A stretch of DNA of 64,000 nt from positions 242,275 through 306,274 of the forward strand of contig NZ_FTOB01000002.1 in the NCBI RefSeq assembly GCF_900156625.1, written 5' to 3'. This stretch comes from Zobellia uliginosa. Lineage in GTDB: Bacteria > Bacteroidota > Bacteroidia > Flavobacteriales > Flavobacteriaceae. A program made the translations under genes and the position numbers. The notes under the pieces are model-generated. The model ran no database searches and was not told where the DNA came from. It saw only the letters and a program-made list of their open reading frames with translations. Shown piece after piece: positions 33,052 through 47,571 of the stretch (its first letter is position 1; every line of letters starts with the position of its first letter).

Positions 33052-33687
33052 CTATTTGTCTTTTCTAAAGATCAAATCTTGTTCTTCCATGGCGAGAACA
33101 ATAAGTTTTATGTAGTCGTCTACGGTTTTTTCAATGTTCTTGGGGTCGGTAACATCTATGCTGCCACGCCAGATCATTGATCGGTCTTTGCCTTCACAAA
33201 TACAGTAGAGGGTGGTTTCTGCGTGATAGACGTCAAATTTTTCGTAGTAGTCGTCATCGTAATAGATGTCTTGGTTCCTAAGGTAATCATCATTGAAGCG
33301 TCCTTTGTAATTGTCCAATTTTGCGAGGGTACGTAGAAAACTTTCGCGGTTTTCGGAGCCTGTAACTTTGGTAAATAGAATGGCATCGAAATCCTTGTCC
33401 AAGAGGCTTTGCTCAACGTCATCAAGTTCTTTTTCTGTTTTTTTCGAGTCGGTAAACGAAACATCAAAGACATCTAGGCTTCGCATGGCCTCCACATTCC
33501 GCTTGTCAAATTCTTTTTGAAGCTTGGTCTCGAAACGCTCCCTTGCGTTTTCATTTTGGGTCATCCCCACAATGAGCACCTTTTGGGCATCGAACAAAAC
33601 GATGTCGGGGTTTTTCCAATTTTCGACCAAGCTGGTCGAGGAACAACTGACAAAAAGGACTAAAAGTAGTATCGAGAGTTTTTTCAT
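33052..33687 (-). CDS. Lipoprotein of unknown function, acidic
   Basis: This 211-residue protein starts at the ATG at 33687, which gives a clean lipoprotein signal (LFVSCSS). The body has an alternating alpha/beta look with VLIVGMTQNENARERFE and DAILFTKVTG, and an acidic, tyrosine-rich run (NQDIYYDDDYYEKFD). Its promoter carries a CRP/FNR-type dyad, so it belongs to the stress regulon. It faces lldD end to end with a 17-base gap. I do not recognise the family. Confidence 0.7.
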   Translation of the reverse strand: MKKLSILLLVLFVSCSSTSLVENWKNPDIVLFDAQKVLIVGMTQNENARERFETKLQKEFDKRNVEAMRSLDVFDVSFTDSKKTEKELDDVEQSLLDKDFDAILFTKVTGSENRESFLRTLAKLDNYKGRFNDDYLRNQDIYYDDDYYEKFDVYHAETTLYCICEGKDRSMIWRGSIDVTDPKNIEKTVDDYIKLIVLAMEEQDLIFRKDK

Positions 33688-33759
33688 AAACGTATTTTTC
33701 TTCAATTGTCCAGCGTATGATAAGACTTGATGCCCCATATCCCACTAAAAGAATCGAAC

Positions 33760-33802
33760 GCAAGGTATAAGTTCTAGGAGTGGATAAAAATGACAATTGT
33801 CA
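33760..33802 (-). promoter_or_regulatory. CRP/FNR-type promoter of the 33052-33687 lipoprotein gene
   Basis: The perfect palindrome TGACAATTGTCA lies at 33791-33802. Its centre is 29.5 bp from the first base of a leftward box TACCTTGC (33767-33760), a weak match to TAnnTTTG. The geometry equals that of the other promoters in this group. The gene starts 73 bases further on. Confidence 0.6.
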
Positions 33803-33836
33803 GTTCTTGAACAAAACTAAGATACGTTAAATCGTT

Positions 33837-34277
33837 TTAAGGTTTGCGCTTTTTTAGTATCGTACCCGCATAGTTGAAGATATGGGTCTTTACCCCCCCA
33901 AAACTTGTCGTGCAGAAGTCGACCTCGAACTGTAGGCGTTCATGCCGTCTATAGAAAGCTATATCGAAGGCAGCCGTGTTACACTCCAAGATTCCGCCCA
34001 ACACGTTTTCATGCTGGTAGATTTGCCCCTGAATTTTCTTCACGGCGACTTCGATATTTTGTAAGCCCTTTTTATGGCTTTGTAGGCGGTCGAACAGGCT
34101 GGGGGTATCAGGTTCAAAAACGTATGAATCCAATAGGTGTTCAATAAAGGCCATTTCATCTTCTAAAAACCTAAGACTCGATTTCCATTGCTGAATTTCC
34201 CTAAAGAGTTCCCCTTCTTTTTTCAGCTGTGTCCAGCGCGATGTAGAGGTTTCGATTATTGTTGTCATAGCTTTCAT
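33837..34277 (-). CDS. Coiled-coil protein of unknown function
   Basis: This is a 146-residue cytoplasmic protein, or 143 residues if the ATG at 34268 is used, which fits the predicted transcription start better. It is strongly helical over residues about 15-100, with the heptad-like pattern typical of a coiled coil. It ends with a beta-rich tail (FEVDFCTTSFGGVKTHIFNY). There is no signal peptide or known domain. A perfect 16-bp dyad just upstream makes it a member of the CRP/FNR-type regulon. Function unknown. Confidence 0.65.
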   Translation of the reverse strand: MKAMTTIIETSTSRWTQLKKEGELFREIQQWKSSLRFLEDEMAFIEHLLDSYVFEPDTPSLFDRLQSHKKGLQNIEVAVKKIQGQIYQHENVLGGILECNTAAFDIAFYRRHERLQFEVDFCTTSFGGVKTHIFNYAGTILKKRKP

Positions 34278-34284
34278 ATATAAG

Positions 34285-34327
34285 CGAATATAGGGGCGGT
34301 GGTAGGCTGGTACAATGACCTAGGTCA
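34285..34327 (-). promoter_or_regulatory. CRP/FNR-type promoter of the 33837-34277 gene
   Basis: AATGACCTAGGTCATT at 34314-34329 is a perfect 16-bp palindrome with core TGAC-CTAG-GTCA at 34316-34327. A leftward -7-like box TATATTCG lies at 34292-34285, its first base 29.5 bp from the dyad centre. The predicted transcription start is near 34280, about 41 bp from the dyad centre, as in class II activation. Confidence 0.75.
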
Positions 34328-34336
34328 TTTAGGGGG

Positions 34337-35707
34337 CTAAACGATGATTTCTTTGGTCTCGTTCAATTTCGGAATGTGTACCTGCCAGTTGTGAACATCG
34401 CCGATCTTCACCCGAAAAGCATCGAGTGCCGTGGGTTCGCCATGAATAAGAAATACCGTTTCGGGAATGTTCTTGATATCTTCCATCCAATGGAGCAGTT
34501 CTTTTTGGTCAGCGTGAGCCGACAGGCTTTCCAAGTGGCGTATTTTCGATTTTACGGGATAATACTTTCCGAACAGTTTCAATTCGTAGGCGCCTTCTAA
34601 AAGCTGCCTTCCCCTAGTACCCTCTGCCTGATATCCTACAAGTAAGACCGTTGTTGAGGAATGGCGCATGAGTTGTTTCAGATAGGTGAGTACCCGCCCC
34701 CCGGTAACCATGCCGCTGCCCGCTATTACGATTTTAGGTCTAGGGTCGTCAATGGTCTTCCAGGTATCGGCATACGAACTTATAATATTGAAATGCTTGC
34801 ACATGGATTGGTACTCCTTGCTTGAGAGTTTATGCCATTCGGGAAACCGTTCAAAAACAGATAGTACATTATTGCCCATAGGGCTGTCGATAAAAATAGG
34901 AATGTTGGGTATTCTGTTTTTCTTGAACAATTGCCACAAAACATACATCAGCGATTGCAAGCGCTCTACGGCAAAGGACGGAATGATAAGGTTGCCCCTT
35001 TGGTTGATGGTTTCGGTGACCAGGTCGACCAAAATTTCCTCAACATCTTCCTGTGGGTGCAATTTGTTGCCATAGGTGCTTTCTACAAATAGGTAGTCGG
35101 CCCATTTCGGATGTTCGGGAGGGGCCAACAAGATATCGTGTTCCCGGCCTATATCCCCCGAGAAGACAAACAGCTTTCCAAAAATTTCCAACTCTATAAA
35201 GGTAGCGCCTATAATGTGCCCGTTATACTTGAACCTCAACCGTAGGTGTTCGGAAAGGGAAATCCATTGGTCTTTTTCCCCATAGGAAAAAAGGCTTATG
35301 GCCCGTTCCGCTTCCCGGATCGAGTAGAAGGGCTTGGCAGGGTGGTGTTTGCTATAGCCTTCCTTATTGGCGCGTTCGGCTTCTTCCTCGTGAATTTTAG
35401 CACTGTCCAAAAGAATGATTTCGGTTATGGCCAAGGTAGGTGGGGTCGCAATTATCTTTCCCCTAAATCCTTCCATAACCAATCTAGGAAGGTAGCCCGT
35501 ATGGTCTAGGTGTCCGTGTGTCAAGAGTACCACATCTATTTTTGAGGCATCTATGGGCAAGGGTTCCCAGTTCAATTGCCGCAATTCCTTCAGGCCTTGG
35601 TACATACCGCAGTCCACCATAACGTTGAGTTCAGGGGTTTCCAGGTAAAATTTCGATCCGGTTACGGTGCCCGAGGCACCCAAAAAGTGAATTTTTACTT
35701 TATTCAT
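34337..35707 (-). CDS. Beta-CASP metallo-beta-lactamase-fold hydrolase, probable RNA nuclease
   Basis: This 456-residue protein has the metallo-beta-lactamase metal-binding motif THGHLDHTG (about 63-71), a later SGDIGRE, and the beta-CASP features PSFAVERLQSLMYVL, GSGMVTGGRVLTYLKQL and SAHADQKELLHWM, ending with LIHGEPTALDAF. Proteins of this type are mostly RNA-processing nucleases such as YSH1-like exonucleases. It lies three bases downstream of an ATP-cone/nuclease fusion gene and in an operon with two universal stress proteins, which suggests a role in RNA turnover under stress. The substrate is inferred. Confidence 0.87.
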   Translation of the reverse strand: MNKVKIHFLGASGTVTGSKFYLETPELNVMVDCGMYQGLKELRQLNWEPLPIDASKIDVVLLTHGHLDHTGYLPRLVMEGFRGKIIATPPTLAITEIILLDSAKIHEEEAERANKEGYSKHHPAKPFYSIREAERAISLFSYGEKDQWISLSEHLRLRFKYNGHIIGATFIELEIFGKLFVFSGDIGREHDILLAPPEHPKWADYLFVESTYGNKLHPQEDVEEILVDLVTETINQRGNLIIPSFAVERLQSLMYVLWQLFKKNRIPNIPIFIDSPMGNNVLSVFERFPEWHKLSSKEYQSMCKHFNIISSYADTWKTIDDPRPKIVIAGSGMVTGGRVLTYLKQLMRHSSTTVLLVGYQAEGTRGRQLLEGAYELKLFGKYYPVKSKIRHLESLSAHADQKELLHWMEDIKNIPETVFLIHGEPTALDAFRVKIGDVHNWQVHIPKLNETKEIIV

Positions 35708-35710
35708 AGT

Positions 35711-36556
35711 TTAAGGGTTGCAGAGTTGTTCGATTTCGTTCAGTATTTTATTCTTTCTGGTAAGCGATATCCCTAAATGATCCAATAAGAACTTGTTTTT
35801 CCATAGTTCGCGACAGAGCACTACGTCCCTGCTCAGCAAAAACTGCTTTTCGCTACTGCTCAGTATCGTAGAAACGGTAATCGGATAGAGTCCCAATCTA
35901 TCGATACGGTCTTTGAGGCCATTGTTAAAGGGGTGGTCCCAGCTCAATAAATACAAATCGGCACAGGTTCCGTATTTGACGGCATCTAAGGTGAAGCGTG
36001 TATTGGTTACGACCCAGCCTTGGCCCAATGTCTTCGTCTCATTGGTCTTGCTGTTCCAATGGGCCTTGACATCATTGTAGCGCGAGTGTATATAGAGCGG
36101 TATCTTTACATTGCAATTGCGGCCTTCTTCACCGTGAAACTTGCATTCAATAACGGTTACCGTATTGTTTTTTTCGGCCACCACGTCGATTTCATGGGTA
36201 ACGCAAAGGCCGTCCATAACAATACCTACCTTGGTCTGGTATCCCGAATAGGTCAAAAGGGCACTTATAAGCCGTTCAAAGGGAAAACCGGTAGGGCCTA
36301 ATTCGTAAATGGCCTTTTTTAGCTTGTACTTTGAGGCGAAAACCGATTTTCGTTTTTTTAGCAGGGCAAAGGCCCTATTGTATATCTCATTGGTAGATAT
36401 GCCTTCATAGAGTTCGTCGCGTACTTGGTCGACGATTTTTTCTACCAATTCGTGATTGGCTCCCGTATGTTTGAGGGAGTTTCTGAGCTTGTCTATGGAA
36501 AACTTTGCCTTTGCGCCAGAGGATTTTATAATATCGAATTCCGTTTTGTTCTTCAT
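35711..36556 (-). CDS. ATP-cone domain fused to Mrr-like restriction-endonuclease fold
   Basis: This 281-residue protein joins an ATP-cone (about residues 8-90), the nucleotide-sensing module best known from ribonucleotide reductases and NrdR, to a PD-(D/E)xK nuclease-like domain (about 92-220). In the second domain, H121-E-I-D124 and E137-C-K139 fit the D...ExK metal-binding arrangement of Mrr-type enzymes. No methylase or specificity gene is nearby, so it is not an ordinary restriction system. The three-base gap to the beta-CASP nuclease gene implies co-expression. Activity and target are unknown. Confidence 0.75.
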   Translation of the reverse strand: MKNKTEFDIIKSSGAKAKFSIDKLRNSLKHTGANHELVEKIVDQVRDELYEGISTNEIYNRAFALLKKRKSVFASKYKLKKAIYELGPTGFPFERLISALLTYSGYQTKVGIVMDGLCVTHEIDVVAEKNNTVTVIECKFHGEEGRNCNVKIPLYIHSRYNDVKAHWNSKTNETKTLGQGWVVTNTRFTLDAVKYGTCADLYLLSWDHPFNNGLKDRIDRLGLYPITVSTILSSSEKQFLLSRDVVLCRELWKNKFLLDHLGISLTRKNKILNEIEQLCNP

Positions 36557-36582
36557 TGCTTTTTGAAATGGATACGGTTATT

Positions 36583-37002
36583 TTATACTTGGGGTTTGAC
36601 CTGGACGTTTATATTGGGAACCTTCAATAGTTGTAGGGTAGTTGAGGCCAGTACGACCTTGCCTTCGGTGGTGAATATCGACTGTTGTATACGTTCGAAC
36701 AGCTGGTGTTTGGTGGCATGCCGAAGCTTATAGTCGGTAATCTTAAGGGCTAGGGTCGGTTCTAGCGTAGCATCTTCAATGTTTTCTACGGTAAACAAGA
36801 GCAAGACCAAGAAAAAAATAAAAAAATAGCCCCCCAGTTCAACACCCTTCAGGGCCTTGTACCTTATCGTGGCATCACCGATGCTTTTTTTGAGGGGTTT
36901 CCTTAAAAGACCCATGGCAATACTGATAAAGATGATCCATAACAACGGCTTGATCACCTTGGCGGCAAAAGGGGCTTTGAGAAAATCGAGAAGTGCGTCC
37001 AT
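36583..37002 (-). CDS. Small membrane protein of unknown function, two TM segments
   Basis: This protein has about 139 residues with the ATG at 37002; a start at 37041 is possible but adds a polar leader. There are two hydrophobic segments (LLWIIFISIAMGLL and YFFIFFLVLLLFTV) with a basic loop between them containing RYKALKG. The pair looks like the start of MscS-type mechanosensitive channels, but the rest of such a channel is missing. It could be a truncated relic or an independent small protein. It sits within the stress operon between a universal stress protein and the ATP-cone gene. Confidence 0.6.
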   Translation of the reverse strand: MDALLDFLKAPFAAKVIKPLLWIIFISIAMGLLRKPLKKSIGDATIRYKALKGVELGGYFFIFFLVLLLFTVENIEDATLEPTLALKITDYKLRHATKHQLFERIQQSIFTTEGKVVLASTTLQLLKVPNINVQVKPQV

Positions 37003-37118
37003 ACAGGTTTGCTTATAAAGTTGACCATGCGTATTGTACATGTTCTTGGCCCTAAGGTGAAAAAGGGAGGATTGCCGTAATTTTCTCCAAAAACCCTTTA
37101 AACTCTTGTTCGTGTTTT

Positions 37119-37958
37119 TTAGCGCAGGGCCAAGATGGGAACGGTAGCGTCGTAGCCTATTTCCTTGACCAGGGGTCTAGAAAATATACTCGCAAAGAAA
37201 AAGTGCTTATGGTTGATAAAGGCGATTATATCGCTTTCCCTACTTTCTACAAAAGCTGTAATACCGTTGGCCACGTTCTTCTCCGAAAGGGTATGAAAAC
37301 TGTGGTCTATTTGTTCGAATATTTGACTTAACAGGGCTTTGTTTTTTTCTTGTTCGGAGGTCAAGATTTGTTTTTTGCTAACATGGAGTACACGAACGGC
37401 CGCCCCGTGCATCTTGGCGATTTCTATGAGATAGCTCAGTTCCTTGCGCTTAAAGTCTGACTTGTAATCCGTTGAAAAAACAATTTCCTTGGGTGTTGAA
37501 AAATGGGTGTCTTGGGGTATGGCCAATACCGGACATTCCGTTATCCTTTCCATGGTATTGACCGTGTTACTGCCGAAGATGACCCCTTTGGTTAACGAGG
37601 CCCCCTTGGTGCCCATGACCACCAAATCGATATCCTTTTCGGAAATCATTTGTTTTAGGGCTTCCGTCAAAAAATTAAAGGTAGAGGTAGTATGGTAGAT
37701 ATGCTTTGGATTGTCATGGTGCAGTGCCAACATATCCAACAATCTCACAAAGTTTTCTTCAGATTTTGCCTTTGCCGCTTCGTATTCCGCGCTACCGGGT
37801 TCTGCCATGATAAGGCTGTCGGTAGTGTAGTTTTCTAGTTTAAAAACGTTTAAAAAGTAGAACTCGCAGTTCAATTTTGCATAGAGATCAAGGGCGTACC
37901 GCACCGCATTGAGGGCATTTTTTGAAAAATCCGTGGGCACTAATATTCTTTTGTACAT
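37119..37958 (-). CDS. Universal stress protein (tandem UspA domains)
   Basis: This 279-residue protein has two UspA-like halves. The first starts ILVPTDFSKNALNAVRYAL and includes VVMGTKGAS and the ATP-binding-type GSNTVNTMERITECPVLAIP. The second half (about 150-279) lacks that glycine motif. Such double-domain Usp proteins are cytoplasmic and respond to starvation, oxidative or low-oxygen stress. It lies 65 bases after the second Usp gene, so both probably come from the promoter at 38925-38967. Confidence 0.9.
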   Translation of the reverse strand: MYKRILVPTDFSKNALNAVRYALDLYAKLNCEFYFLNVFKLENYTTDSLIMAEPGSAEYEAAKAKSEENFVRLLDMLALHHDNPKHIYHTTSTFNFLTEALKQMISEKDIDLVVMGTKGASLTKGVIFGSNTVNTMERITECPVLAIPQDTHFSTPKEIVFSTDYKSDFKRKELSYLIEIAKMHGAAVRVLHVSKKQILTSEQEKNKALLSQIFEQIDHSFHTLSEKNVANGITAFVESRESDIIAFINHKHFFFASIFSRPLVKEIGYDATVPILALR

Positions 37959-38023
37959 GCTGTTCTTTTTTCAAGGGTTGAATAAATCTAATTGATTTTT
38001 AGTGGTTTACCTATTTTTGGCGG

Positions 38024-38875
38024 TCAGTCTTTATAAGGAAGGATAAGGAAAGGAACATCGGTATACTTACTTATATCCTTTACCACGGGTTCGTGTATAA
38101 GGCGCTCAAAAAAACTGTGTTTATAATAGACCATGGCGAACATATCAATGCCTTTGGTCTTCAAGAAATCGTCAATGGCCACGGCTTTGTCGGAAAAGGC
38201 CCGTACCCAATGGAAACTGTGGTCAATGTGCTTAAGGCATAGCTCGAGCATTTCTTTATGTGATTGTTGTTCTTTGCTTAGTTCTTCTTCTTCGTTGATG
38301 TGCATGACCTTTATTTTTGCATCGAAGATCTCGGTAATGAAAATGAGGGGGGTAATCGTTTTTTTGGTACATCCCCTTTTATAGTCCGTTACAAAGGCAA
38401 GGTCTTTAGGTTTTGAGAAATCCCTTTGTTTGGGAACGGTCAAAATAGGACATTGGGTTATGGTGTCGGCTACTTGTATGGTGTTGCTGCCCAAGAAAAT
38501 TTCTTTGGCCCCGGTATGGCCCTTACTGCCCATAACGATGAGATCTATGTCGTATGGATTGAGCATCTGGTGTATGGTCTTTACCAAATTTCCTTTTTTC
38601 GATAGGGTCTCGAACCGGTGCAAGGGGTTTTCATTGTCTAGATTGATACGGTGTTTAAGGGCCGTAAGATTATCGTTGGATGTGATCTTTAATTGTTCCA
38701 GCAGTTTCTTTCCCACCAAAAACTCCGGTTTGCCTCCCTCCAAGGGGGTAAGTTGATCGTATACGTTCAGAAGGTAAAAGGTACATTCCTTTGAGGCCAA
38801 CAAGCGGGTAGCGTAGAAAAGCGCGCTGTAGGCGTAGTTTGAAAAGTCAGTGGGCACCAGTATATTTTTTATCAT
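38024..38875 (-). CDS. Universal stress protein (tandem UspA domains)
   Basis: This protein has 283 residues from the ATG at 38875; the longer frame to 38920 would run through the promoter region. The N-terminal half shows ILVPTDFSNYAYSALFYA, VVMGSKGHTG and GSNTIQVADTITQCPILTVP. The C-terminal half is divergent. It is related to the neighbouring Usp protein, so the pair probably arose by duplication. It is first in a leftward operon of about five genes and is divergent from thioredoxin, with a shared CRP/FNR-type dyad between them. Confidence 0.9.
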   Translation of the reverse strand: MIKNILVPTDFSNYAYSALFYATRLLASKECTFYLLNVYDQLTPLEGGKPEFLVGKKLLEQLKITSNDNLTALKHRINLDNENPLHRFETLSKKGNLVKTIHQMLNPYDIDLIVMGSKGHTGAKEIFLGSNTIQVADTITQCPILTVPKQRDFSKPKDLAFVTDYKRGCTKKTITPLIFITEIFDAKIKVMHINEEEELSKEQQSHKEMLELCLKHIDHSFHWVRAFSDKAVAIDDFLKTKGIDMFAMVYYKHSFFERLIHEPVVKDISKYTDVPFLILPYKD

Positions 38876-38924
38876 TATCTTATATTTAGAATTAATCGAA
38901 TCGCGGCAGCTTTGAATCACTGTA

Positions 38925-38967
38925 TAAAACTAATCGAGAAGAATTTATAAAACCATGATATTGGTCA
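38925..38967 (-). promoter_or_regulatory. CRP/FNR-type promoter of the Usp operon (leftward)
   Basis: The dyad TGATATTGGTCA (38956-38967) has its centre 29.5 bp from the first base of the leftward box TAGTTTTA (38932-38925), one mismatch from TAnnTTTG. The first gene of the operon starts 50 bases further on. Confidence 0.68.
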
Positions 38968-38998
38968 GTTTTGCAACGATCTATTTTCAGTAATTTTA
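38956..38998 (+). promoter_or_regulatory. CRP/FNR-type promoter of thioredoxin (rightward)
   Basis: The same dyad (38956-38967) is also centred 29.5 bp from the first base of a rightward box TAATTTTA (38991-38998), one mismatch from TAnnTTTG. One regulator bound here could serve both divergent promoters. The thioredoxin ATG is at 39017. Confidence 0.68.
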
Positions 38999-39016
38999 AC
39001 CATCAAAATTTCAGGA

Positions 39017-39316
39017 ATGAAAAGTAGTTTCAGTAAAATCGTAGAATCGGATACACCTGTATTGGTAGACTTTTATGCCGACTGGTGCGGGCCCTGTAAA
39101 ATGTTGGCCCCTATTTTAAAACAAGTCAAAGACGAACTTGGGGATGCCATTAAGATCGTAAAGATCGATGTGGATAAAAACCAACCCTTGGCGAATACCT
39201 ATAATGTTCGTGGCGTACCCACCATGCTATTGTTCAAAAACGGAAAACAGGTCTGGCGACAGTCGGGGGTACTACAGAAAAACGATATTGTACAGATCGT
39301 GAAGTCGAACTCTTAG
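39017..39316 (+). CDS. trxA: Thioredoxin
   Basis: This 99-residue protein is a standard single-domain thioredoxin. The redox motif WCGPCK is at about 24-29, after VLVDFYADW, and the cis-proline segment RGVPTMLLF is present. There is no signal peptide, so it works in the cytoplasm as a disulfide reductant. It shares a bidirectional CRP/FNR-type site with the Usp operon and is probably co-transcribed with the haem lipoprotein that follows. Confidence 0.95.
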   Translation: MKSSFSKIVESDTPVLVDFYADWCGPCKMLAPILKQVKDELGDAIKIVKIDVDKNQPLANTYNVRGVPTMLLFKNGKQVWRQSGVLQKNDIVQIVKSNS

Positions 39317-39424
39317 TATTGCCGGTATTCTCGTTATAGGGAGTGGGGAGGGTGTCCCGATGGGCTTCCCGAACCTTTGACCTATTCTGAAAGGGACAAG
39401 GCCTTTTATCTAAAAAATAACCGA

Positions 39425-40423
39425 ATGAAAAAGTACTCTATTTATTTACTAATGGTTTTCTTCCTTGCAAGTTGTAGGGACGGTCAAAAAACAAAAACGG
39501 GGCCTGTTGATGATAATGGGCAGACCCAAACCGTTGTGGCCAAGGAACCACATCCGGGAAAACTCATCATGGAGAGGGAGTGCTATATGTGCCATGATCC
39601 CAAAGCGACCATGGCGAATCGGATTGCACCGCCTATGGAAGCGATTAAGAGACATTATATCGATTCGACCGTTAGCAAAGAGGAGTTTACGGAAGCCTTG
39701 ATCAAATGGGTGAACGATCCGGAAACGGAAACCAAAATTCCCGCCGCCCATAAAAGGTTCGGTCCCATGCCCTATCTGCCCAACCGCGATGAGGCCGTGG
39801 CACAGATTGCCGATTATATCTATAATAACGAATTGGAACGGCCCGACGGCTTTGATGACTATTTTAAAAGGGCACATAAAAAAGGTATGGGGATGGAAGA
39901 ATGCCATTGTTTTGATTACCCCGACCCCGATAAAGTGTATGCCTCTATAGGGATGTCATATGCAAAAGAAGCCCAAATGCAGTTAGGGAAGAGCTTAACG
40001 AAGGCGATTCAGGAAAAGGGGCCCGTAGGGGCCATAGGTTTCTGCAACCTAGAGGCCATAAAAATTACCGACAGTGTGTCTTTGATGAAAAATGCGGTCA
40101 TTCAAAGGGTTTCCGATAGGCCCAGAAATCCCAAGAACAAGGCCAATGCCCAAGAATTAGAATACATATCCTCTTTCAAGGAAGCCTTGGCGTCGGGAGG
40201 GGAAGTAAGCCCCGTGGTACATACTGAAAACGACGAAGTCTCTTTTTACGCACCGATCGTAACCAATGCCCTTTGTCTACAATGTCACGGGAAACCCAAT
40301 GAGCAAGTACTGCCCGAGACTATGGCGGCACTGAAGAAATTGTACCCGAACGATAAGGCGGTCGGCTATGATGTTGGTCAGGTACGCGGTATGTGGAGCA
40401 TTGCGTTCTATGGTGATAAATAA
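39425..40423 (+). CDS. Cytochrome c plus DUF3365 (Tll0287-like) lipoprotein
   Basis: This 332-residue protein starts at the ATG at 39425, which gives a lipoprotein signal (FFLASC). Two haem-attachment motifs are visible: CYMCH in an N-terminal class I cytochrome c-like domain and CLQCH in a C-terminal DUF3365-like domain. The latter family includes the haem protein Tll0287 and sensor-type domains. It would be anchored on the periplasmic side and could carry electrons or sense redox state. The gene follows thioredoxin by 108 bases and ends at a clear terminator. Confidence 0.85.
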   Translation: MKKYSIYLLMVFFLASCRDGQKTKTGPVDDNGQTQTVVAKEPHPGKLIMERECYMCHDPKATMANRIAPPMEAIKRHYIDSTVSKEEFTEALIKWVNDPETETKIPAAHKRFGPMPYLPNRDEAVAQIADYIYNNELERPDGFDDYFKRAHKKGMGMEECHCFDYPDPDKVYASIGMSYAKEAQMQLGKSLTKAIQEKGPVGAIGFCNLEAIKITDSVSLMKNAVIQRVSDRPRNPKNKANAQELEYISSFKEALASGGEVSPVVHTENDEVSFYAPIVTNALCLQCHGKPNEQVLPETMAALKKLYPNDKAVGYDVGQVRGMWSIAFYGDK

Positions 40424-40500
40424 GCTTCAAGGATGGAGCAGGAAAATCGATAAAGTAAAATAGGTGGTTCCGCATCAAATATTTTAGATGGTTGGAAAAG

Positions 40501-40530
40501 GGGTGTTGTTATTGGCAACATCCTTTTTTT
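40501..40530 (+). terminator. Intrinsic terminator after the cytochrome c gene
   Basis: GGGTGTTG (40501-40508) pairs with CAACATCC (40516-40523) through an 8-bp stem with one G-T pair, followed by seven T residues (40524-40530). Confidence 0.8.
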
Positions 40531-40569
40531 ATGGTAAACTTTTTCGAATATCCGATTTAAGTGTACCTT

Positions 40570-40600
40570 TTGAACAAATTCAAAAAGTCCGATACCTTTG
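40570..40600 (+). promoter_or_regulatory. Promoter of upp
   Basis: TTG (40570-40572, within TTTTG) and TACCTTTG (40593-40600) match the Bacteroidota -33/-7 pattern with the standard spacing of 20 bases. It lies inside the longest open frame, so translation should start at the ATG at 40639. No CRP/FNR-type dyad is present at the corresponding position. Confidence 0.72.
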
Positions 40601-40638
40601 TAATCAAACATATTCATAACTCAAATCAAACGATAATT

Positions 40639-41292
40639 ATGACGATTCATAACCTTGGCGAAAACAATTCGCTGATGAACAAATTCATTGCTGAAATTAG
40701 GGATGTTGCTATCCAAAAGGATGCTATGCGGTTCAGGCGGAATATTGAGCGTATCGGGGAAGTGCTAGGTTATGAAATGAGCAAATCGTTTCGGTACGAG
40801 AGCAGTCAGGTACACACACCATTAGGAAGCAAGGAAATGGACCTACCCACGGACAAGGTGGTTTTGTGTTCCATTTTACGGGCCGGACTTCCCTTGCACC
40901 AGGGATTGTTAAATTATTTTGACGGGGCGGAAAATGCTTTTATTTCGGCCTATCGCCACCATAGGGGAGACGAAGATGCCTTTGAGGTCGTTGTCAACTA
41001 TTTTGCGGCACCTTCCTTAGAAGCTAAGATATTGGTGTTGACAGACCCGATGTTGGCTACCGGGAAAACATTGGAGAATGTCTTGAAAGTACTGAAAAAC
41101 CAAGGCACGCCGGCACAGATACACATTGTTTCGGTCATAGGGGCACAAGAGGGTGTGGCCCACGTTCAAAAGGTATTTCCAGAAAACACCCATCTATGGA
41201 TTTCTGCCATTGACCCCGAACTGAATGCCAGGGGCTATATTATACCTGGCATAGGGGATGCTGGTGATCTGGCCTATGGCGAAAAACTTTAG
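40639..41292 (+). CDS. upp: Uracil phosphoribosyltransferase
   Basis: This protein has 217 residues from the ATG at 40639, matching the family's usual length; the upstream in-frame start would precede the promoter. The PRPP-binding motif LTDPMLATGKTLENVL and the uracil-binding segment ARGYIIPGIGDAGDLAYG are clear. It salvages uracil to UMP in the cytoplasm. It sits between the haem lipoprotein and the P-type ATPase but has an ordinary promoter, so it may be only a bystander in the stress cluster. Confidence 0.94.
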   Translation: MTIHNLGENNSLMNKFIAEIRDVAIQKDAMRFRRNIERIGEVLGYEMSKSFRYESSQVHTPLGSKEMDLPTDKVVLCSILRAGLPLHQGLLNYFDGAENAFISAYRHHRGDEDAFEVVVNYFAAPSLEAKILVLTDPMLATGKTLENVLKVLKNQGTPAQIHIVSVIGAQEGVAHVQKVFPENTHLWISAIDPELNARGYIIPGIGDAGDLAYGEKL

Positions 41293-41300
41293 GTTCTTCC

Positions 41301-43838
41301 CTAGGGCGCCTTCATGCCTTTTTCCAACATATTAGTTTTTCTTAGCCCTAGGCGTTTGCCCCATTTTACCACCTCGTACCAGAGCACCGAAATACTACCG
41401 GCCAATAGGCAGACCGACAATTGGTCTACGTTCAAGGTGCTGAATTCAAAGAAGGTGGTCAAGGGGGAGACAAAGAGCAGGCTAGCGGCCAAGGCGGCCG
41501 TTATGCCAATAATCAGGCCAACTAGATTGTTCTTATACCTCAAGGTCGTCCATAGCGAGTAATAGAAAGATCGGTTCACCAAGGTCAAAAAGATATTGGC
41601 CACGATCAACACCATAAAAACCATGGTACGGGTAGTGTCTTCATCAAAGCTTTGCGCTACGGCATATTGGTAAACCGATAGTGAAGCCAAGGTGATGATC
41701 AGACCTTGTACGATACTTGTAATCAATTCGTTGAAATTGAAAAATGTGGTCGTAAACGGCCGGGGTCTTTGGTTCATGGTATTTTTTTCCATAGGCTCGT
41801 TCTCGTAAATAATGGAGCAGGTGGGGCCCATGATGAGTTCCAGCAAAATAACATGCGATGGTGAAAATATGGAAGGGAAGCTCCACCGTAGGGCCAAGGG
41901 GATAAATACCGTTAATATGATGGGAATATGGATGGAGATAATATACTGGATCGCTTTTTTGAGGTTGGTATAGATCTTTCGTCCCATGGCAATGGCATCT
42001 ACCATTTTAGAGAGGTCGTCGTCGACCAAAATCAATGAGGCCGCCTGCTTGGCGATTTCCGTGCCCTTTTTTCCCATGGCAATGCCGATGTGTGCCGCCT
42101 TGAGCGCCGGGCCGTCGTTGACCCCGTCACCTGTCATGGCCACGACTTCCTTGTTCACTTTTAGGGCATTGATAATTCTAAGCTTGGCTTCTGGAAACAT
42201 TCGGCTGAACACATGGGTGTCCGTTACCCTCTCCTGTAATTCCGCATCGGTCAACTGCATCAATTCGTCACCCGACATACATTTGTCGTAGCCAATAAAA
42301 TCGATTTCCTTGGCAATAGCTATGGCCGTAGCGGCATTGTCTCCGGTTACCAGTTTTACGTTTATTCCGGCCGTATTGAAATCTTTGAGCACCTGGGGGA
42401 TGTTTTCCTTTGGCGGATCGTAAAAGGCCACCAGTCCCTTAAATTCGAATTTAAAGTCCTGTTGGTATTGAGGAAAATCGTTTCCTTCGAATAGGGCCTG
42501 TCCTACGCCCAATAAACGAAAGCCTTGTTTGCCCAGTTTCTCTATGGTAGAGTAGATGTATCGCTTTTCCTCGTCGCTGAGGTTCGAGCCTTGTATCAGG
42601 GCTTCCGGTGCGCCCTTGGCGGCAATGATCCGTTGACCGGCCCGATTTTCGAACAAATGCGTCATCATGGGCGGCTTTCCGCTTAACGGATATTCGTGGA
42701 TCATGTGGTAATTGGGCCTTTCGTCCACCTCCGTATGCTTTGCATAGGCTTGGTGCAAAGCGATTTCCATGGGGTCAAAAGGTATGGGCTCACTGGCCCA
42801 CATGGCTATGGTAATTAGTTCTTTTTCTTCGTTATTTAAGCCTTCCTCGAGAGAGACGACCCTTGCGGCCCTAATGGAAAACAATAGGGCCAAGCTCATT
42901 TTGTTCTGGGTGAGGGTCCCGGTTTTGTCGGTGCATATAACGGTGGCGCTACCCAAGGTTTCCACCGTTTTCATCTGTTTTACCACAACGCCCAATTTCA
43001 TCAGTCGCCAGGCTCCCAAGGCCATAAAGGTGGTAAAGGCGACGGGAATCTCTTCGGGAAGAATACTCATGGCAAGTGTCAGCGCCTTTAGTAAACTATC
43101 GAGTACGTCACGTGAATTGAAGTAATTAATGCCCCATACCAAGAGAAACGTAAGGCCGCCCCAAAGGGCCATCTGCTTTACAAAATTGGCGATTTGCAGT
43201 TCTAAGGGCGTTTTTTCGTCTTCAATGGTGTTTAGGCTGTTGCCGATTTTTCCGAGTTGGGTGTGATTGCCTATAGCGGTAACGACGGCAATGGCCAGGC
43301 CACTGGCTACGGTGGTGCCGCTAAAAATAGTATTGTCGGTAGAGGATACATCCTTAAAGACCGAAAGCGACTCTCCGGTGAGTATGGATTCGTTTACGGA
43401 GAAGTCGTTGGAATGAACGATGGTGCCATCCGCAGGAACCATAGTGCCTTCCTCTACGATCAGGCTGTCGCCAACGACCAGCTCCTCACTGGGGATCTCT
43501 ACGACCTTGCCGTTACGGATGACCTGGCAGTTGGGTTCGGTTAGGTTCTTTAATTTTTCCAAGGCCTTCCGGCTTCTCGAATCTTGATAAAGCGAAATGG
43601 AACCCACCAATACAATGGCGGTGACCATAAAGATGCCGTCGCCAAAATTGCCGCTGATAAAATATATGGAAGAGGCCACCAAGAGCAAAAGGATCATAGG
43701 TTCTTTTAGAAGACCTTTTAGGGCATCTAAAAAACCGTTTTTTTCCTTATAGGTAAATGAATTGGCCCCGTGTGTTTTTCTTGACCGGTTTATCTGCTCG
43801 TCGGTCAGTCCCTCAATACCCAAGTTCTCAACGGCCAT
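41301..43838 (-). CDS. P-type cation-transporting ATPase (P2-type, Ca2+-like)
   Basis: This 845-residue inner-membrane pump has an N-terminal cation-ATPase segment, the TGES actuator motif, the phosphorylation site CTDKTGTLTQNK and the hinge MTGDGVNDGPALKAAHIGIAMG. The membrane motif PEEIPVA fits P2-type pumps that move Ca2+ or similar ions, not heavy-metal pumps, since no metal-binding N-terminal domain or CPC motif is seen. Its promoter carries a CRP/FNR-type dyad with an exact -7 box. The ion is inferred. Confidence 0.9.
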   Translation of the reverse strand: MAVENLGIEGLTDEQINRSRKTHGANSFTYKEKNGFLDALKGLLKEPMILLLLVASSIYFISGNFGDGIFMVTAIVLVGSISLYQDSRSRKALEKLKNLTEPNCQVIRNGKVVEIPSEELVVGDSLIVEEGTMVPADGTIVHSNDFSVNESILTGESLSVFKDVSSTDNTIFSGTTVASGLAIAVVTAIGNHTQLGKIGNSLNTIEDEKTPLELQIANFVKQMALWGGLTFLLVWGINYFNSRDVLDSLLKALTLAMSILPEEIPVAFTTFMALGAWRLMKLGVVVKQMKTVETLGSATVICTDKTGTLTQNKMSLALLFSIRAARVVSLEEGLNNEEKELITIAMWASEPIPFDPMEIALHQAYAKHTEVDERPNYHMIHEYPLSGKPPMMTHLFENRAGQRIIAAKGAPEALIQGSNLSDEEKRYIYSTIEKLGKQGFRLLGVGQALFEGNDFPQYQQDFKFEFKGLVAFYDPPKENIPQVLKDFNTAGINVKLVTGDNAATAIAIAKEIDFIGYDKCMSGDELMQLTDAELQERVTDTHVFSRMFPEAKLRIINALKVNKEVVAMTGDGVNDGPALKAAHIGIAMGKKGTEIAKQAASLILVDDDLSKMVDAIAMGRKIYTNLKKAIQYIISIHIPIILTVFIPLALRWSFPSIFSPSHVILLELIMGPTCSIIYENEPMEKNTMNQRPRPFTTTFFNFNELITSIVQGLIITLASLSVYQYAVAQSFDEDTTRTMVFMVLIVANIFLTLVNRSFYYSLWTTLRYKNNLVGLIIGITAALAASLLFVSPLTTFFEFSTLNVDQLSVCLLAGSISVLWYEVVKWGKRLGLRKTNMLEKGMKAP

Positions 43839-43852
43839 ATACGTTCTTTTTT

Positions 43853-43895
43853 CAAAAATAGGTGAAATAAAATATAGCGTGATTGATCTATGTCA
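43853..43895 (-). promoter_or_regulatory. CRP/FNR-type promoter of the P-type ATPase
   Basis: The dyad TGATCTATGTCA (43884-43895) is centred 29.5 bp from the first base of TATTTTTG (43860-43853), an exact TAnnTTTG match reading leftward. The ATG is at 43838. Confidence 0.75.
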
Positions 43896-43982
43896 TTTTA
43901 TTGGAGTAAGTTAAAGGTGCCATGGGCAGGTCGCCTTCCGAGGGTGAGAGGGGGCTTTTTTTTTACGAAATTGTCGATAGTA

Positions 43983-44025
43983 TGACTTATCTCATGTTCT
44001 TGGAATGGAATTTCGCTTTACTTTG
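43983..44025 (+). promoter_or_regulatory. CRP/FNR-type promoter of the ABC exporter operon
   Basis: The dyad TGACTTATCTCA (43983-43994) is centred 29.5 bp from the first base of TTACTTTG (44018-44025), one mismatch from TAnnTTTG. The first gene starts at 44047. Confidence 0.65.
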
Positions 44026-44046
44026 AATATCTGCAATTTATAAACT

Positions 44047-45129
44047 ATGCGTTATATATTTATATGGGTCTTGGTATTGGTACTGCAATCGTGTGGTGAC
44101 GAACAGGAAAAAATCCTTCCCCAAAAAACGGAACTCACCGAATCGGTATATGCATCGGCTACGGTACAGCCCGATAGCCTCTATAAGGTGTATTCGGCCG
44201 TTGGCGGAATTTTAGAGCGCAATTTGGTAGAAGAGGGCGATCGTGTCAAAAAGGGAAGCCCTTTGCTGCAGATCATCAATAATACTCCCAAGCTGAATAC
44301 GGAAAATGCCAAGCTTTCGTTACGTTTGGCCCAAGAAAACTATAACGGTAGCGCAGCCGTGCTCAAGGGCTTGGAAGACGAAATAAAAGCGGCCGCCCTA
44401 TCGTTTCATAACGATTCCATCAATTTCTATAGACAGAAACGCCTGTGGTCGCAAAACATAGGGGCTAAGGTTGAATTTGATAACCGTAAATTGGCCTATG
44501 AGCTTTCCCGAAACAATCTCAACCTTCTAAAAAGTAAGTACGAGCGCACCGAGAACGAACTGTTGACCCAAGTACGTCAGGCTCGTAACAACTATGAGTC
44601 GGCACAGATCAATACAAAGGACTTTACGGTAACGAGCAAGATTAACGGCAAGGTCTATGAACTGATGAAAGAACCCGGTGAAATCGTAAGCACTATGGAG
44701 CCCATAGCGGCAGTAGGAAGCGATTCGGTTTTTATCATCAAAATGCTGGTAGACGAAGTGGATATCGTAAAACTCGGTTTGGGCCAAAAGACCTTGGTTA
44801 CCTTAGATGCATACCCTTCGGAGGTGTTCGTTGCCACGGTAGACAAAATCTATCCACGTAAGGATGAGCGCTCACAGACCTTTACGGTAGAGGCCAGTTT
44901 TGACGACCCGCCAAAAATCCTGTATCCGGGATTGGCAGGTGAGGGCAATATTATCATCGCCCAAAAGAAAGAGGCATTGACCATTCCCAAAGCCTATCTT
45001 ATAAATGGCAACAGCGTACGTACCACTAACGGTATGGTAGAGGTGGTTACGGGACTGCAAAATTTAGAACGGGTAGAGATTGTTGAGGGAATCGGCGAAA
45101 CTACCGAGCTGTTAAAACCGGAACAATGA
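44047..45129 (+). CDS. HlyD-type periplasmic adaptor, lipoprotein
   Basis: This 360-residue membrane-fusion protein has a lipobox (LVLQSC), a biotinyl-lipoyl half (VGGILERNLVEEGDRVKKGSPLLQI), a coiled-coil hairpin (about 95-190) and a beta-barrel region after the second lipoyl half (TVTSKINGKVYELMKEPGEIV). It bridges an inner-membrane ABC transporter to the outer membrane. The next gene overlaps it by four bases (ATGA), so they are translationally coupled. The exported compound is unknown. Confidence 0.9.
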   Translation: MRYIFIWVLVLVLQSCGDEQEKILPQKTELTESVYASATVQPDSLYKVYSAVGGILERNLVEEGDRVKKGSPLLQIINNTPKLNTENAKLSLRLAQENYNGSAAVLKGLEDEIKAAALSFHNDSINFYRQKRLWSQNIGAKVEFDNRKLAYELSRNNLNLLKSKYERTENELLTQVRQARNNYESAQINTKDFTVTSKINGKVYELMKEPGEIVSTMEPIAAVGSDSVFIIKMLVDEVDIVKLGLGQKTLVTLDAYPSEVFVATVDKIYPRKDERSQTFTVEASFDDPPKILYPGLAGEGNIIIAQKKEALTIPKAYLINGNSVRTTNGMVEVVTGLQNLERVEIVEGIGETTELLKPEQ

Positions 45130-46388
45130 CCAATTGGAGCGTTATATTGAACATTGCCAAAACACATTTGGTAACCAAGGTAAAGTCTACGGCTACGGCG
45201 GCCCTCGGGATTACGTTCGGTATTGGCGCCTATATTACCTTGATCAGCTTTATGACCGGACTGAACGTTATGTTAGATGGACTCATATTGAACCAAACGC
45301 CGCATATTCATTTGTACAACGAGATCGAACCGAGCGAATCCCAGCCCATATCGCTTTATGACGAATTTCAAAATTCGGTAAACATCGTGCATTCGATTAA
45401 ACCTAGGCGAAGTCAGAAGAAAATTCATAACGCCCTGCCCATTTTAAGCTATCTAAAAAAGGATAAGGAGGTAAAAGGGGCCACGCCCCAGCTCAGGGCG
45501 CAGATCTTTTATTTGTCGGGTTCCATAGAATTGAGCGGTAACCTAGTGGGTATCGATATTATGGAGGAGACACGGCTCTCCAATATGGGCGATTACATCA
45601 TTCAAGGAAGCCCTCAAGCCCTCAAGAATACTGAAAATGGCATATTGCTAGGTTCGGGCCTTGCCGAAAAAATGTCGTTGTCGGTGGGGGATAGGGTACA
45701 GATAAGTACCGTATCGGGCGATATTTTTCCCTTGAAAATAGTAGGTTTTTACCAAAGCGGGGTGGCCGATGTAGACAACATTCAGAGTTTTGCCAACCTT
45801 AAGACCGTACAGCGGATTCTAGGCGAGGCACAGAACTATATTACCGATATCAATATTAGACTGTTTAACATTGAAGGGGCACCGGCCATGGCAAAACGGC
45901 TGCAAAAACAGTTTGATATAAAGGCTACGGATATCAATGAGGCCAATGCCCAGTTCGAGACCGGATCCAACATTAGAAACCTGATTACCTATGCCGTATC
46001 CATTACTTTGTTGATCGTGGCCGGCTTCGGAATTTACAACATCTTGAACATGCTCATCTACGAAAAAATGAAGGATATCGCCATTCTGAAAGCCACGGGG
46101 TTTTCGGGGCGCGATGTACAGCTCATTTTTATGAGCCAGGCCATGATCATTGGAGTGGTAGGAGGTGTTCTCGGTCTCCTCCTTGGCTTCGGCCTATCGC
46201 ATATCATAGACAATGTAGCTTTTGAGACGGCCGCCCTTCCCACCATAAAGACCTATCCTATAAGTTTTGATATCAGCTACTATGTGGTGGGACTCACTTT
46301 TGCACTGCTCTCTACCTTTATTGCAGGTTGGCTGCCTTCCGTAAAGGCCAAGCACATTGATCCGGTGCGCATTATTCGTGGAACTTAA
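45126..46388 (+). CDS. ABC transporter permease, FtsX/MacB type
   Basis: This 420-residue protein has one N-terminal membrane segment (about 20-45), a large periplasmic MacB-like domain (about 50-275) and three more membrane segments near the C-terminus (about 288-410). It ends with the family's characteristic VKAKHIDPVRIIRG. Such permeases act by mechanotransmission with an adaptor and ATPase. It overlaps the adaptor gene and precedes the ATPase by 10 bases, making a three-gene exporter of the MacAB/DevBCA kind. Confidence 0.9.
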   Translation: MTNWSVILNIAKTHLVTKVKSTATAALGITFGIGAYITLISFMTGLNVMLDGLILNQTPHIHLYNEIEPSESQPISLYDEFQNSVNIVHSIKPRRSQKKIHNALPILSYLKKDKEVKGATPQLRAQIFYLSGSIELSGNLVGIDIMEETRLSNMGDYIIQGSPQALKNTENGILLGSGLAEKMSLSVGDRVQISTVSGDIFPLKIVGFYQSGVADVDNIQSFANLKTVQRILGEAQNYITDINIRLFNIEGAPAMAKRLQKQFDIKATDINEANAQFETGSNIRNLITYAVSITLLIVAGFGIYNILNMLIYEKMKDIAILKATGFSGRDVQLIFMSQAMIIGVVGGVLGLLLGFGLSHIIDNVAFETAALPTIKTYPISFDISYYVVGLTFALLSTFIAGWLPSVKAKHIDPVRIIRGT

Positions 46389-46398
46389 AATCGGGAAA

Positions 46399-47070
46399 AT
46401 GGAATACGTTCTAGAAACGAAAAACATCAATAAGCATTTTTATAAGCCGAAAGACTTTCATGTACTAAAGGATATCTCTTTTGGGGTAAAAGTGGGCGAG
46501 TTTGCTTCCATTATGGGAAAATCCGGATCGGGAAAATCTACCTTGCTCTATATTTTATCGACCATGGATACCGATTATACGGGTGAACTCTACCTCAACC
46601 ATGAATTGGTCACGGGAAGGTCGCATCAAGAACTGTCGCGCATTAGAAACAAGCATATAGGCTTTGTCTTTCAGTTCCATTACTTATTGTCGGAATTCAG
46701 TGTTTTGGAAAATGTCATGCTTCCGGCAAAGAAACTGAACGAGAAATCACATGCCGATATTAAACGCGATGCTATGCAAAAGCTCGAAATGCTTCATATC
46801 GATTATCTGGCCCAACAGCGTGCTTCTCGAATATCGGGGGGTGAAAAGCAACGGGTAGCCATAGCCAGGGCCTTGATCAATAATCCCATTATTCTTATGG
46901 GGGATGAACCTACCGGAAACCTTGACAGTCAAAACTCTGATAACGTTTTTAATATATTTAAAAGGCTGAAAGAGGAAGAGGGACTTTCCCTATTGGTGGT
47001 AACCCATGACGAGGATTTTGCCCAACGGACGGATCGTATCATTCAAATGGAAGACGGACGTATAATATAA
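46399..47070 (+). CDS. ABC transporter ATPase, LolD/MacB type
   Basis: This protein has 223 residues from the ATG at 46399; an upstream in-frame start would overlap the permease. It has Walker A GKSGSGKST, Q-loop FVFQFHYLL, signature SGGEKQR, Walker B ILMGDEPTGNLD and the H-loop VVTHDED. It powers the exporter encoded by the two preceding genes. Confidence 0.93.
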   Translation: MEYVLETKNINKHFYKPKDFHVLKDISFGVKVGEFASIMGKSGSGKSTLLYILSTMDTDYTGELYLNHELVTGRSHQELSRIRNKHIGFVFQFHYLLSEFSVLENVMLPAKKLNEKSHADIKRDAMQKLEMLHIDYLAQQRASRISGGEKQRVAIARALINNPIILMGDEPTGNLDSQNSDNVFNIFKRLKEEEGLSLLVVTHDEDFAQRTDRIIQMEDGRII

Positions 47071-47087
47071 TATCTTGAGCCCCTCAC

Positions 47088-47130
47088 TGACCCAAGTCAT
47101 ACTACGAATCGACGGAAGCCTTTACTTTTG
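47088..47130 (+). promoter_or_regulatory. CRP/FNR-type promoter of the SpoIIAA-like gene
   Basis: The dyad TGACCCAAGTCA (47088-47099) is centred 29.5 bp from the first base of TACTTTTG (47123-47130), an exact TAnnTTTG match. The ATG is at 47185. Confidence 0.75.
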
Positions 47131-47184: not shown

Positions 47185-47571
47185 ATGATTGAGAAAATAA
47201 AAACTTATAAGGGCAACTCCCTAGCTTTAGAAGTTATAGACGGATTTACCGAAACCGATGAAAAATTGGCCCTAAAGTTCTTTCAGGAAAAAATTGACGA
47301 AGGATACGGGCATGTGAACGTACTGGTCAAACTCGACGAGTTGAAAATTAGCCATAGTGAGATAAAAGCACTTATGGAAGATGCCAAATGGACCCTAGGG
47401 AATTATGGGCAAATTGGGAATATAGCCATTGTGGCCAATTCGAACATCTTAAAGGCCTTGGTCTCCCTTGATGCTCTTTTCTTTGAAAGACTGCGAAAAG
47501 GTTACGAAGAGCGTTATTTTGATATTTCACAATTGGATGAAGCGCTCGAGTTTATCGCACCTAACCCGTAA
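47185..47571 (+). CDS. SpoIIAA-like (STAS-related) protein
   Basis: This 128-residue cytoplasmic protein belongs to the SpoIIAA-like/STAS-related group by its pattern of alternating helices and strands, with GHVNVLVKLDELKISHSEIKALMEDAKW and IGNIAIVANSNILKALVSLD. The family is often seen with stress genes, but its action is not known. It does not show the phosphorylatable serine of true anti-sigma antagonists clearly. Its promoter has the shared dyad and an exact -7 box. The L,D-transpeptidase gene follows after 14 bases. Confidence 0.78.
   Translation: MIEKIKTYKGNSLALEVIDGFTETDEKLALKFFQEKIDEGYGHVNVLVKLDELKISHSEIKALMEDAKWTLGNYGQIGNIAIVANSNILKALVSLDALFFERLRKGYEERYFDISQLDEALEFIAPNP

Follow-up and report, generated by a model that had tools for sequence, protein, structure and literature searches.

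What acts at seven promoters that carry the same palindrome at the same distance from the -7 box? The question is raised by a stretch of 64,000 nucleotides of Zobellia uliginosa (contig NZ_FTOB01000002.1, positions 242,275 to 306,274; hereafter the window), in which six two-fold TGA-N6-TCA dyads stand before genes of an island of stress proteins and transporters; five of them fit TGAYN4RTCA, and the sixth is degenerate at an inner base. At this exact promoter distance the palindrome probably marks genes that are switched on at low oxygen. An initial annotation, made from the sequence alone, had noted that the regulator gene is not in the window; this holds, and a search for CRP/FNR-family genes found two candidates elsewhere in the genome, an FNR-like protein and a fusion of a receiver domain to a CRP-type activator.

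The palindrome and its distance from the -7 box

All six dyads reported in the initial annotation were borne out, as was their fixed distance: in 7/7 promoter readings, the 38956 dyad being read in both directions, 23 bp separate the dyad from the box, i.e. 29.5 bp from the dyad centre to the first base of the box. The grading of the boxes against TAnnTTTG (two exact, four with one mismatch, one weaker) was likewise reproduced. The window contains 10 copies of TGAYN4RTCA where 3.4 would be expected, a number reached in 0/100 shuffles, and spacing 23 accounts for 5 of the 12 pairs of an exact dyad and a box with at most one mismatch at spacings 5-44. TTTG 19-21 bp ahead of the box was found in none of the seven dyad promoters; TTG is present at 20 bp (34316) and 17 bp (38956, plus direction). 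The upp promoter, used as a negative control, reads TTTTG-N20-TACCTTTG, the ordinary -33/-7 arrangement that had been ascribed to it. Upstream of upp the window lacks TGAYN4RTCA, and at spacer 23 behind any TGA-N6-TCA there are at least four mismatches to the box; the upstream 260 bp of five relatives contain no TGA-N6-TCA at all, and a TGAY dyad with a spacer-23 box is absent from this region in the window and the five relatives alike.

The 5.3 Mb genome was scanned for exact dyad/TAnnTTTG pairs at spacers 8-38. This revealed 32 pairs, 19 of them at spacer 23 and the remaining 13 distributed one apiece over 13 of the 30 other spacings; the reversed control gave 2 (Poisson tail 7e-25). With up to one mismatch, the fixed spacing is found at 46 places genome-wide, the 19 exact ones included, versus 1 in the control. 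Without the box requirement TGAYN4RTCA occurs 269 times in the genome and 111 times in the reversed control; because of these 269 occurrences the dyad alone is not diagnostic and was rejected as a regulon marker, the dyad plus the spacing being diagnostic. In six other genomes of the class (of the 17 scanned, the six whose pairs were listed in full, G221 and ten others being left out) spacer 23 accounts for 49 of 135 pairs, spacer 24 for 15, spacer 22 for 8 and the other 28 spacers together for 63. Across 247 genomes of the class, Z. uliginosa included, 807 exact sites at the fixed spacing were counted, versus 21 in the reversed control.

Sites of related genomes gave the same picture. In four genomes of the same genus 26/28 orthologous promoters keep the spacing, boxes with up to two mismatches being accepted. 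The dyads at 33791 (with a similarly weak box), 34316, 38956 (in both directions), 43983 (the degenerate one, as TGAYTTATCTCA) and 47088 are each retained in 4/4 orthologues; the SpoIIAA orthologue taken in one genome (G253) is merely 34% identical. The dyad of the P-type ATPase is also present in genomes G264 and G280, which belong to the same family and to different genera, and was not seen in G021, a genome of another family. For the three more distant of the four genus genomes, 18 promoter pairs were compared, all with a kept dyad and with the P-type ATPase excluded; substitutions were found at 0/108 half-site positions, 30/72 N4 positions, 165/414 spacer positions and 6/108 fixed box letters; the half-site zero is conditional on the kept dyad, the unconditional figure being the 26/28 promoters. 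Conservation and substitution pattern together argue strongly that the dyads function in protein binding.

The sigma-A box TAnnTTTG of Flavobacterium psychrophilum maps to -12 to -5 (PMC9723704). Combined with a spacer of 23 bp, this start mapping supports a class II position for Z. uliginosa too, in which the dyad would be centred at -41.5. Class II geometry of the CRP/FNR kind, with the dyad near -41, had already been suggested and is supported by the spacing, by its conservation and by the matching recognition helices of the two regulators described below. Judged by these sequence features, the dyad is almost certainly the operator of CRP/FNR-family activators that act from a class II position at Bacteroidota sigma-A promoters, where it would replace a good -33 element.

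The highest counts among the 247 genomes, 24 and 26 exact sites, are those of G064 and G220 (family f22). Three of the sites listed for G064 have almost identical 43 bases (TGATTAATATCATAGTTT...TAGTTTTG), which looks like duplication of the promoter. Just beyond the window, the dyad TGACTTTTGTCA (genome C13:236046-236107) is followed on one strand by an exact box at spacer 23; on the opposite strand a box lies at spacer 11. The site with spacer 23 is repeated in four genus members and is near a 765-amino acid (aa) frame of unknown kind.

Genes behind the sites and two candidate regulators

The window sites go with two universal stress proteins, encoded along with an ATP-cone protein and a beta-CASP nuclease, with thioredoxin and a haem lipoprotein, and with a cation P-type ATPase, an ABC exporter, a SpoIIAA-like protein and two proteins of no known family. 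Outside the window, sites with a box at the proper position were found at the genes for HemN (the oxygen-independent type), CcoNO and a heavy-metal-type P-type ATPase, which adjoins the cbb3 oxidase genes and is CcoI-like by position, and at the NosZ and NapA operons; NosZ, the nitrous-oxide reductase, is encoded by the second gene of its operon, and the NapA operon has MoeA on the other side. Further sites belong to an alternate F1F0 ATPase operon (beta subunit first), Hsp20, a patatin protein, universal stress proteins (USPs), phosphoenolpyruvate (PEP) carboxykinase, an operon containing an FtsH-like protease, and a MlaE/chloride channel pair. Sites were assigned to genes by position, and some of the boxes have one mismatch. 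Two candidates were excluded: the gene of PEP synthase, which has a dyad upstream with no box at spacer 23, and a phospholipase D-like gene, for which there is only a two-mismatch box upstream of its neighbour.

Since sites also precede the cbb3, hemN, nos and nap genes and the Hsp20/USP/alternate ATPase cluster, and are spread over the genome in the numbers given above, the initial description of a purely local regulon was rejected. The gene set is one of low-oxygen respiration and survival. Low oxygen and nitrosative stress had both been proposed as the signal; the presence of cbb3 oxidase, HemN, NosZ and NapA in the regulon makes low oxygen the likely one, and nothing specific to nitrosative stress was found.

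Four HTH_Crp_2 matches above the cut-off are present in the genome, two of which stand within the regulon. The gene for the first, the FNR-like protein (C6:101546-102235, equal to L032:1045-1734), adjoins the cbb3 genes and has a site upstream. The protein aligns along its length with solved FNR (9qlt; 1.5e-22). Its structure model has the CRP/FNR fold (mean predicted local distance difference test score 90), with holo-FNR 5e44 (template modelling score 0.83) ranked below 2gau and GlxR, and the NCBIfam Fnr model gives 104 bits, below its cut-off of 228. Cysteines 5, 8, 54 and 107 are invariant in 22 relatives, its own sequence included. C5, C8 and C107 align with cluster cysteines of FNR, and C54, in the barrel, has no FNR counterpart. 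The third N-terminal cysteine of FNR has a counterpart in many relatives and is absent from this protein and its closest relatives; to judge from the alignment, invariant Cys54 may replace it as a moved cluster ligand.

The recognition-helix consensus GTATE[TS]xIR is common to the FNR-like protein and the receiver-CRP fusion. Compared with ETISR of solved FNR, the helix keeps the E and the R and has I in place of S, which fits a TGA half-site without flanking TT. In CRP/FNR proteins the half-site bases A6 and G3 correspond to E181 and R180, respectively (PMC1274295); with E kept and R180 replaced by T (alignment by eye), a TGA without a preceding G fits as well.

The fusion gene (C13:729012-730079) specifies a receiver, a cNMP_binding and an HTH_Crp_2 domain. 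It lies directly behind, and overlaps, the gene of a 1092-aa multi-PAS histidine kinase with PAS and GAF domains, and an exact site precedes the kinase. Across 17 fusions the receiver residues E8, D9, D52, T82 and K104 do not vary. A kinase H-box is encoded upstream of the fusion in 25/29 loci; among the other four, none was seen in L073, L084 and L091, the first two of which end near contig ends, and L090 was unscored, its receiver motif having been missed. The PAS domain of the Arcticibacter kinase is clearly of the FixL kind, matching solved FixL at 7.3e-31, and the first PAS domain of the Z. uliginosa kinase matches 10jx at 2.9e-11 and FixL at 7.4e-9. The alignment column of the proximal histidine, with which FixL binds haem, is His in 11/11 kinases (that of Z. 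uliginosa and 10 named ones; L129 was omitted as no upstream kinase frame was found).

Eleven named receiver-CRP loci, from Aquimarina, Chitinophaga, Arcticibacter, Jiulongibacter and Sphingobacterium among others, contain 17 pairs at spacer 23, distributed over 8 of the 11, and at most 3 at any other spacer. This comparison of spacings within the loci is better than that with the 69 control loci, which gave 2 spacer-23 matches and form a weak control, most of them being from phyla that differ in their promoters. Neighbours of the kinase/fusion pair in an uncultured Aquimarina are USPs, a HemN-like radical SAM protein and a cbb3 oxidase; in a Flavobacteriaceae metagenome-assembled genome (L132) the pair lies near the same ATP-cone/beta-CASP nuclease pair as is present in the window. 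One genus member possesses a second, diverged receiver-CRP fusion (G248:C2:2873378-2874424; 40% identical), with an exact site at 2873294, just beyond its 3' end and oriented away. A literature search of limited scope found neither a receiver-CRP response regulator nor the spacing rule described for Bacteroidota.

The following circuit is proposed. On a drop in oxygen the PAS kinase would phosphorylate the receiver of the fusion, and the CRP part of the phosphorylated fusion would directly activate genes for stress and survival, namely the island in the window and the cluster of Hsp20, USP and alternate F1F0-ATPase genes; the FNR-like protein would be expected to be active without oxygen. FixJ and FixK would here be merged into one protein, giving a compressed FixL-FixJ-FixK circuit plus FNR at the same site type. 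From the sequence comparisons it is probable that two regulators share this one site type and that the receiver-CRP fusion does the work of both FixJ and FixK. For the class as a whole we lean towards the following reading: about half of the species sampled (124/247 genomes, fusion E<1e-50) would carry a one-protein FixJ-FixK under a FixL-like kinase. It would directly activate a low-oxygen regulon of the dormancy type from TGAYN4RTCA sites with their centre at -41.5, and since the FNR-like protein, encoded separately, would use this operator type too, two oxygen sensors would converge on one kind of DNA site.

Competing explanations and known systems

Site numbers are associated with the presence of the regulators. 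Genomes with both have on average 7.4 sites (n=41), those with the fusion only 3.2 (n=83), those with the FNR-like protein only 3.1 (n=51) and those with neither 1.1 (n=72). These means come from tables compiled by hand with self-chosen cut-offs (E<1e-50 for the fusion and effectively E<1e-39 for the FNR-like protein, G158, G188 and G218 at 1.7e-40 to 5.7e-40 being counted as present), and are uncorrected for phylogeny, for which the comparison within families is a partial control; there, in 24 families that include genomes with and without the fusion, its presence goes with more sites in 17. In the genus, the FNR-like gene is present in 9/9 genomes and the fusion in 5/9, with site counts of 19, 26, 18, 26 and 21 in genomes with the fusion and 4, 4, 4 and 3 in those without. 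In 9/9 genomes an exact site lies just upstream of the FNR-like gene, and in 5/5 genomes with the fusion one lies 3.46-3.47 kb ahead of the fusion gene; in Z. uliginosa the latter is the site before the kinase.

The foremost alternative is that the FNR-like protein alone acts at all sites, the fusion binding elsewhere or only modulating, and co-occurring with the sites because both belong to the same accessory block. The matching recognition helices of the two proteins and the sites of genomes with the FNR-like protein only are in its favour. So is the island P-type ATPase, the only window gene looked up in the fusion-less genus members, for which there is no match (E<=1e-100) in precisely these four genomes; with ATPase and fusion missing together, an accessory block of regulator, genes and sites would look alike, and gene co-loss could explain the counts. 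Against it stand the 83 fusion-only genomes, whose mean is above that of genomes with neither regulator, and the clustering of sites around fusion genes in most of the named loci. A second specificity is further suggested by N4, in which G/C is nearly absent from the dyads of fusion-free genus members (1/15, versus 62/110 in the others; these sites are not independent, orthologues being counted repeatedly). Action of the FNR-like protein alone is regarded as unlikely. A simple N4 code, with G/C-rich, CCTAGG-like sites for the fusion and AT-only sites for FNR, was itself rejected, as 9/17 spacer-23 sites near named fusions have no G/C and none is CCTAGG-like (by eye).

For the two-regulator circuit, what is observed are the sites, their exact spacing and conservation, the genes behind them, the agreement of the recognition helices and the association of site number with each regulator; that the proteins bind and activate, that the receiver is phosphorylated, that oxygen is the signal and which regulator serves which promoter is inferred. 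Besides the shared absence of ATPase and fusion, several points weigh against this circuit. Genomes with neither regulator still average 1.1 sites versus 0.08 for the control, and fusion-positive members have fewer sites in 6 of the 24 families, with one tie. The only two losses among the 28 orthologous promoters are both of the P-type ATPase dyad (43884), lost in 2/4 genomes of the genus. Three of the 11 named fusion loci (L124, L130 and L134) have no spacer-23 site nearby, and by eye L130 and L134 have the clearest FixL PAS domains. The distal Arg, which follows GxG (GIG in FixL), is present in 5/11 kinases and not in that of Z. uliginosa, which is therefore not named a FixL despite its His; haem as its cofactor is possible, and without this Arg haem binding is uncertain.

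A nitric oxide-sensing CRP/FNR protein of the HcpR/DNR kind, responding to nitrosative stress, would account for NosZ and NapA in the regulon, and 2gau, the solved structure nearest to the FNR-like protein, is a CRP/FNR-family protein of Porphyromonas gingivalis. It is nevertheless very unlikely that the sites serve such a sensor. The motif of HcpR2 is GTAACnnnnGTTAC (PMC1274295) and so differs from TGAYN4RTCA, four cysteines are invariant in the FNR-like protein, and the gene content (cbb3, HemN, USP) is that of low oxygen.

Repression, by a CRP/FNR protein bound beside the -33 region and blocking the promoters, deserves hardly any credence. The dyad does lie where the polymerase makes its upstream promoter contacts, and the lack of TTTG ahead of all seven boxes would suit a blocked promoter; a repressor, however, needs no such exact centre, -41.5 is the known position of class II activators, and 5/7 boxes are inexact, as at activator-dependent promoters. 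Chance or AT-rich composition, which the sheer number of TGAYN4RTCA dyads in the genome might suggest, is refuted by the spacing peak, the class-wide excess and the footprinting across orthologous promoters.

The two-regulator circuit may be compared with the FixLJ-FixK2 cascade of rhizobia (PMC9104804, PMC7888657). It differs in that receiver and CRP activator form a single polypeptide, so that the kinase would reach its targets without an intermediate regulator gene, and in the site (TGAYN4RTCA) and a promoter of the Bacteroidota -7 type. The output of the fusion is cNMP_binding plus HTH_Crp_2 and not the LuxR-type output of FixJ; the fusion is not a FixJ and would do the work of one. Unlike FixK, a stand-alone protein whose transcription depends on FixJ, its CRP part is joined to a receiver whose phosphorylation residues are invariant. 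Common to both systems, in outline, are a PAS kinase related to FixL, a receiver protein and a CRP/FNR-type activator, with cbb3, HemN, nap and nos among the targets. FNR/ANR regulons of Proteobacteria likewise have the class II position near -41.5 and cbb3 and denitrification targets, and solved FNR aligns with the FNR-like protein over its full length; the site here lacks the outer TT, and the Z. uliginosa protein lacks the third N-terminal FNR cysteine and has the invariant Cys54.

The lxa low-oxygen locus of Burkholderia cenocepacia specifies universal stress proteins, a heat-shock protein, a metallo-beta-lactamase-fold protein and a cytochrome c (PMC6127331), a closely similar low-oxygen survival gene set, compared by gene content alone, in a different phylum. 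HcpR2 of Bacteroides belongs to the CRP/FNR family and the same phylum; its motif, derived from HcpR2-containing genomes with Bacteroides included, is of the GTAACn4GTTAC type, as opposed to TGAYN4RTCA here, and for most Bacteroides the regulon predicted in that study is hcp only (PMC1274295). The spacing rule provides a ready regulon predictor for the whole class, and the receiver-CRP fusion would represent a shorter wiring of the FixLJ-FixK cascade. To our knowledge, low-oxygen sensing and response are poorly charted in Bacteroidota, where few activators have been assigned an exact position at the promoter. A genus with and without the fusion offers a natural comparison for the contribution of the second sensor.

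Features of the window

Coordinates of the dyads, boxes and island genes are collected in the table.

Table. Dyads, -7 boxes and genes of the island, in window coordinates
Feature	Position	Strand	Remarks
228-aa protein	33052..33738	-	no Pfam match; lipoprotein-like signal by eye
Dyad TGACAATTGTCA	33791..33802	-	box TACCTTGC at 33760-33767, 2 mismatches; upstream of the 228-aa lipoprotein-like gene
146-aa probable coiled-coil protein	33837..34277	-	no Pfam match; distant look-alikes in other clusters
Dyad TGACCTAGGTCA	34316..34327	-	box TATATTCG at 34285-34292, one mismatch
Beta-CASP/RMMBL metallo-beta-lactamase-fold nuclease	34337..35707	-	
ATP-cone protein, nuclease-like C-terminus	35711..36556	-	AF1548-like, below cut-off
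152-aa probable membrane protein	36583..37041	-	no Pfam match; by eye
Universal stress protein	37119..37958	-	Pfam Usp 2.2e-28
Universal stress protein	38024..38920	-	first in leftward operon; Pfam Usp 1.1e-22
Divergent dyad TGATATTGGTCA	38956..38967	both directions	minus box TAGTTTTA at 38925-38932; plus box TAATTTTA at 38991-38998; one mismatch each
Thioredoxin	39017..39316	+	
Haem lipoprotein	39377..40423	+	Tll0287-like; CxxCH motifs by eye
upp -7 box TACCTTTG	40593..40600	+	ordinary -33 20 bp ahead; ATG of upp at 40639; serves as negative control
Cation-transporting P-type ATPase	41301..43838	-	
Dyad of P-type ATPase	43884..43895	-	box TATTTTTG at 43853-43860, exact
Degenerate dyad TGACTTATCTCA of ABC exporter	43983..43994	+	box TTACTTTG at 44018-44025, one mismatch
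ABC exporter operon	44047..47070	+	HlyD-type, FtsX/MacB-type, ATPase
Dyad TGACCCAAGTCA	47088..47099	+	box TACTTTTG at 47123-47130, exact
SpoIIAA-like protein	47185..47571	+	

Immediately past the island lies a molybdenum hydroxylase pair (MoCoBD and 2Fe-2S subunits) at 48583-51220, and a DUF5004/lipocalin-like protein is encoded at 52055-52570. Small coiled-coil-like proteins of 127-147 aa recur in low-oxygen clusters (window 33837-34277; L040:14625-15032; L041:4342-4725; L041:9205-9636; L132:14415-14858). They show 16-21% identity to the first of the set, and the two that were scanned gave no Pfam match. With W31, S33, F37, D40, H89 and H112 invariant in 5/5, the five may represent one fast-changing family.

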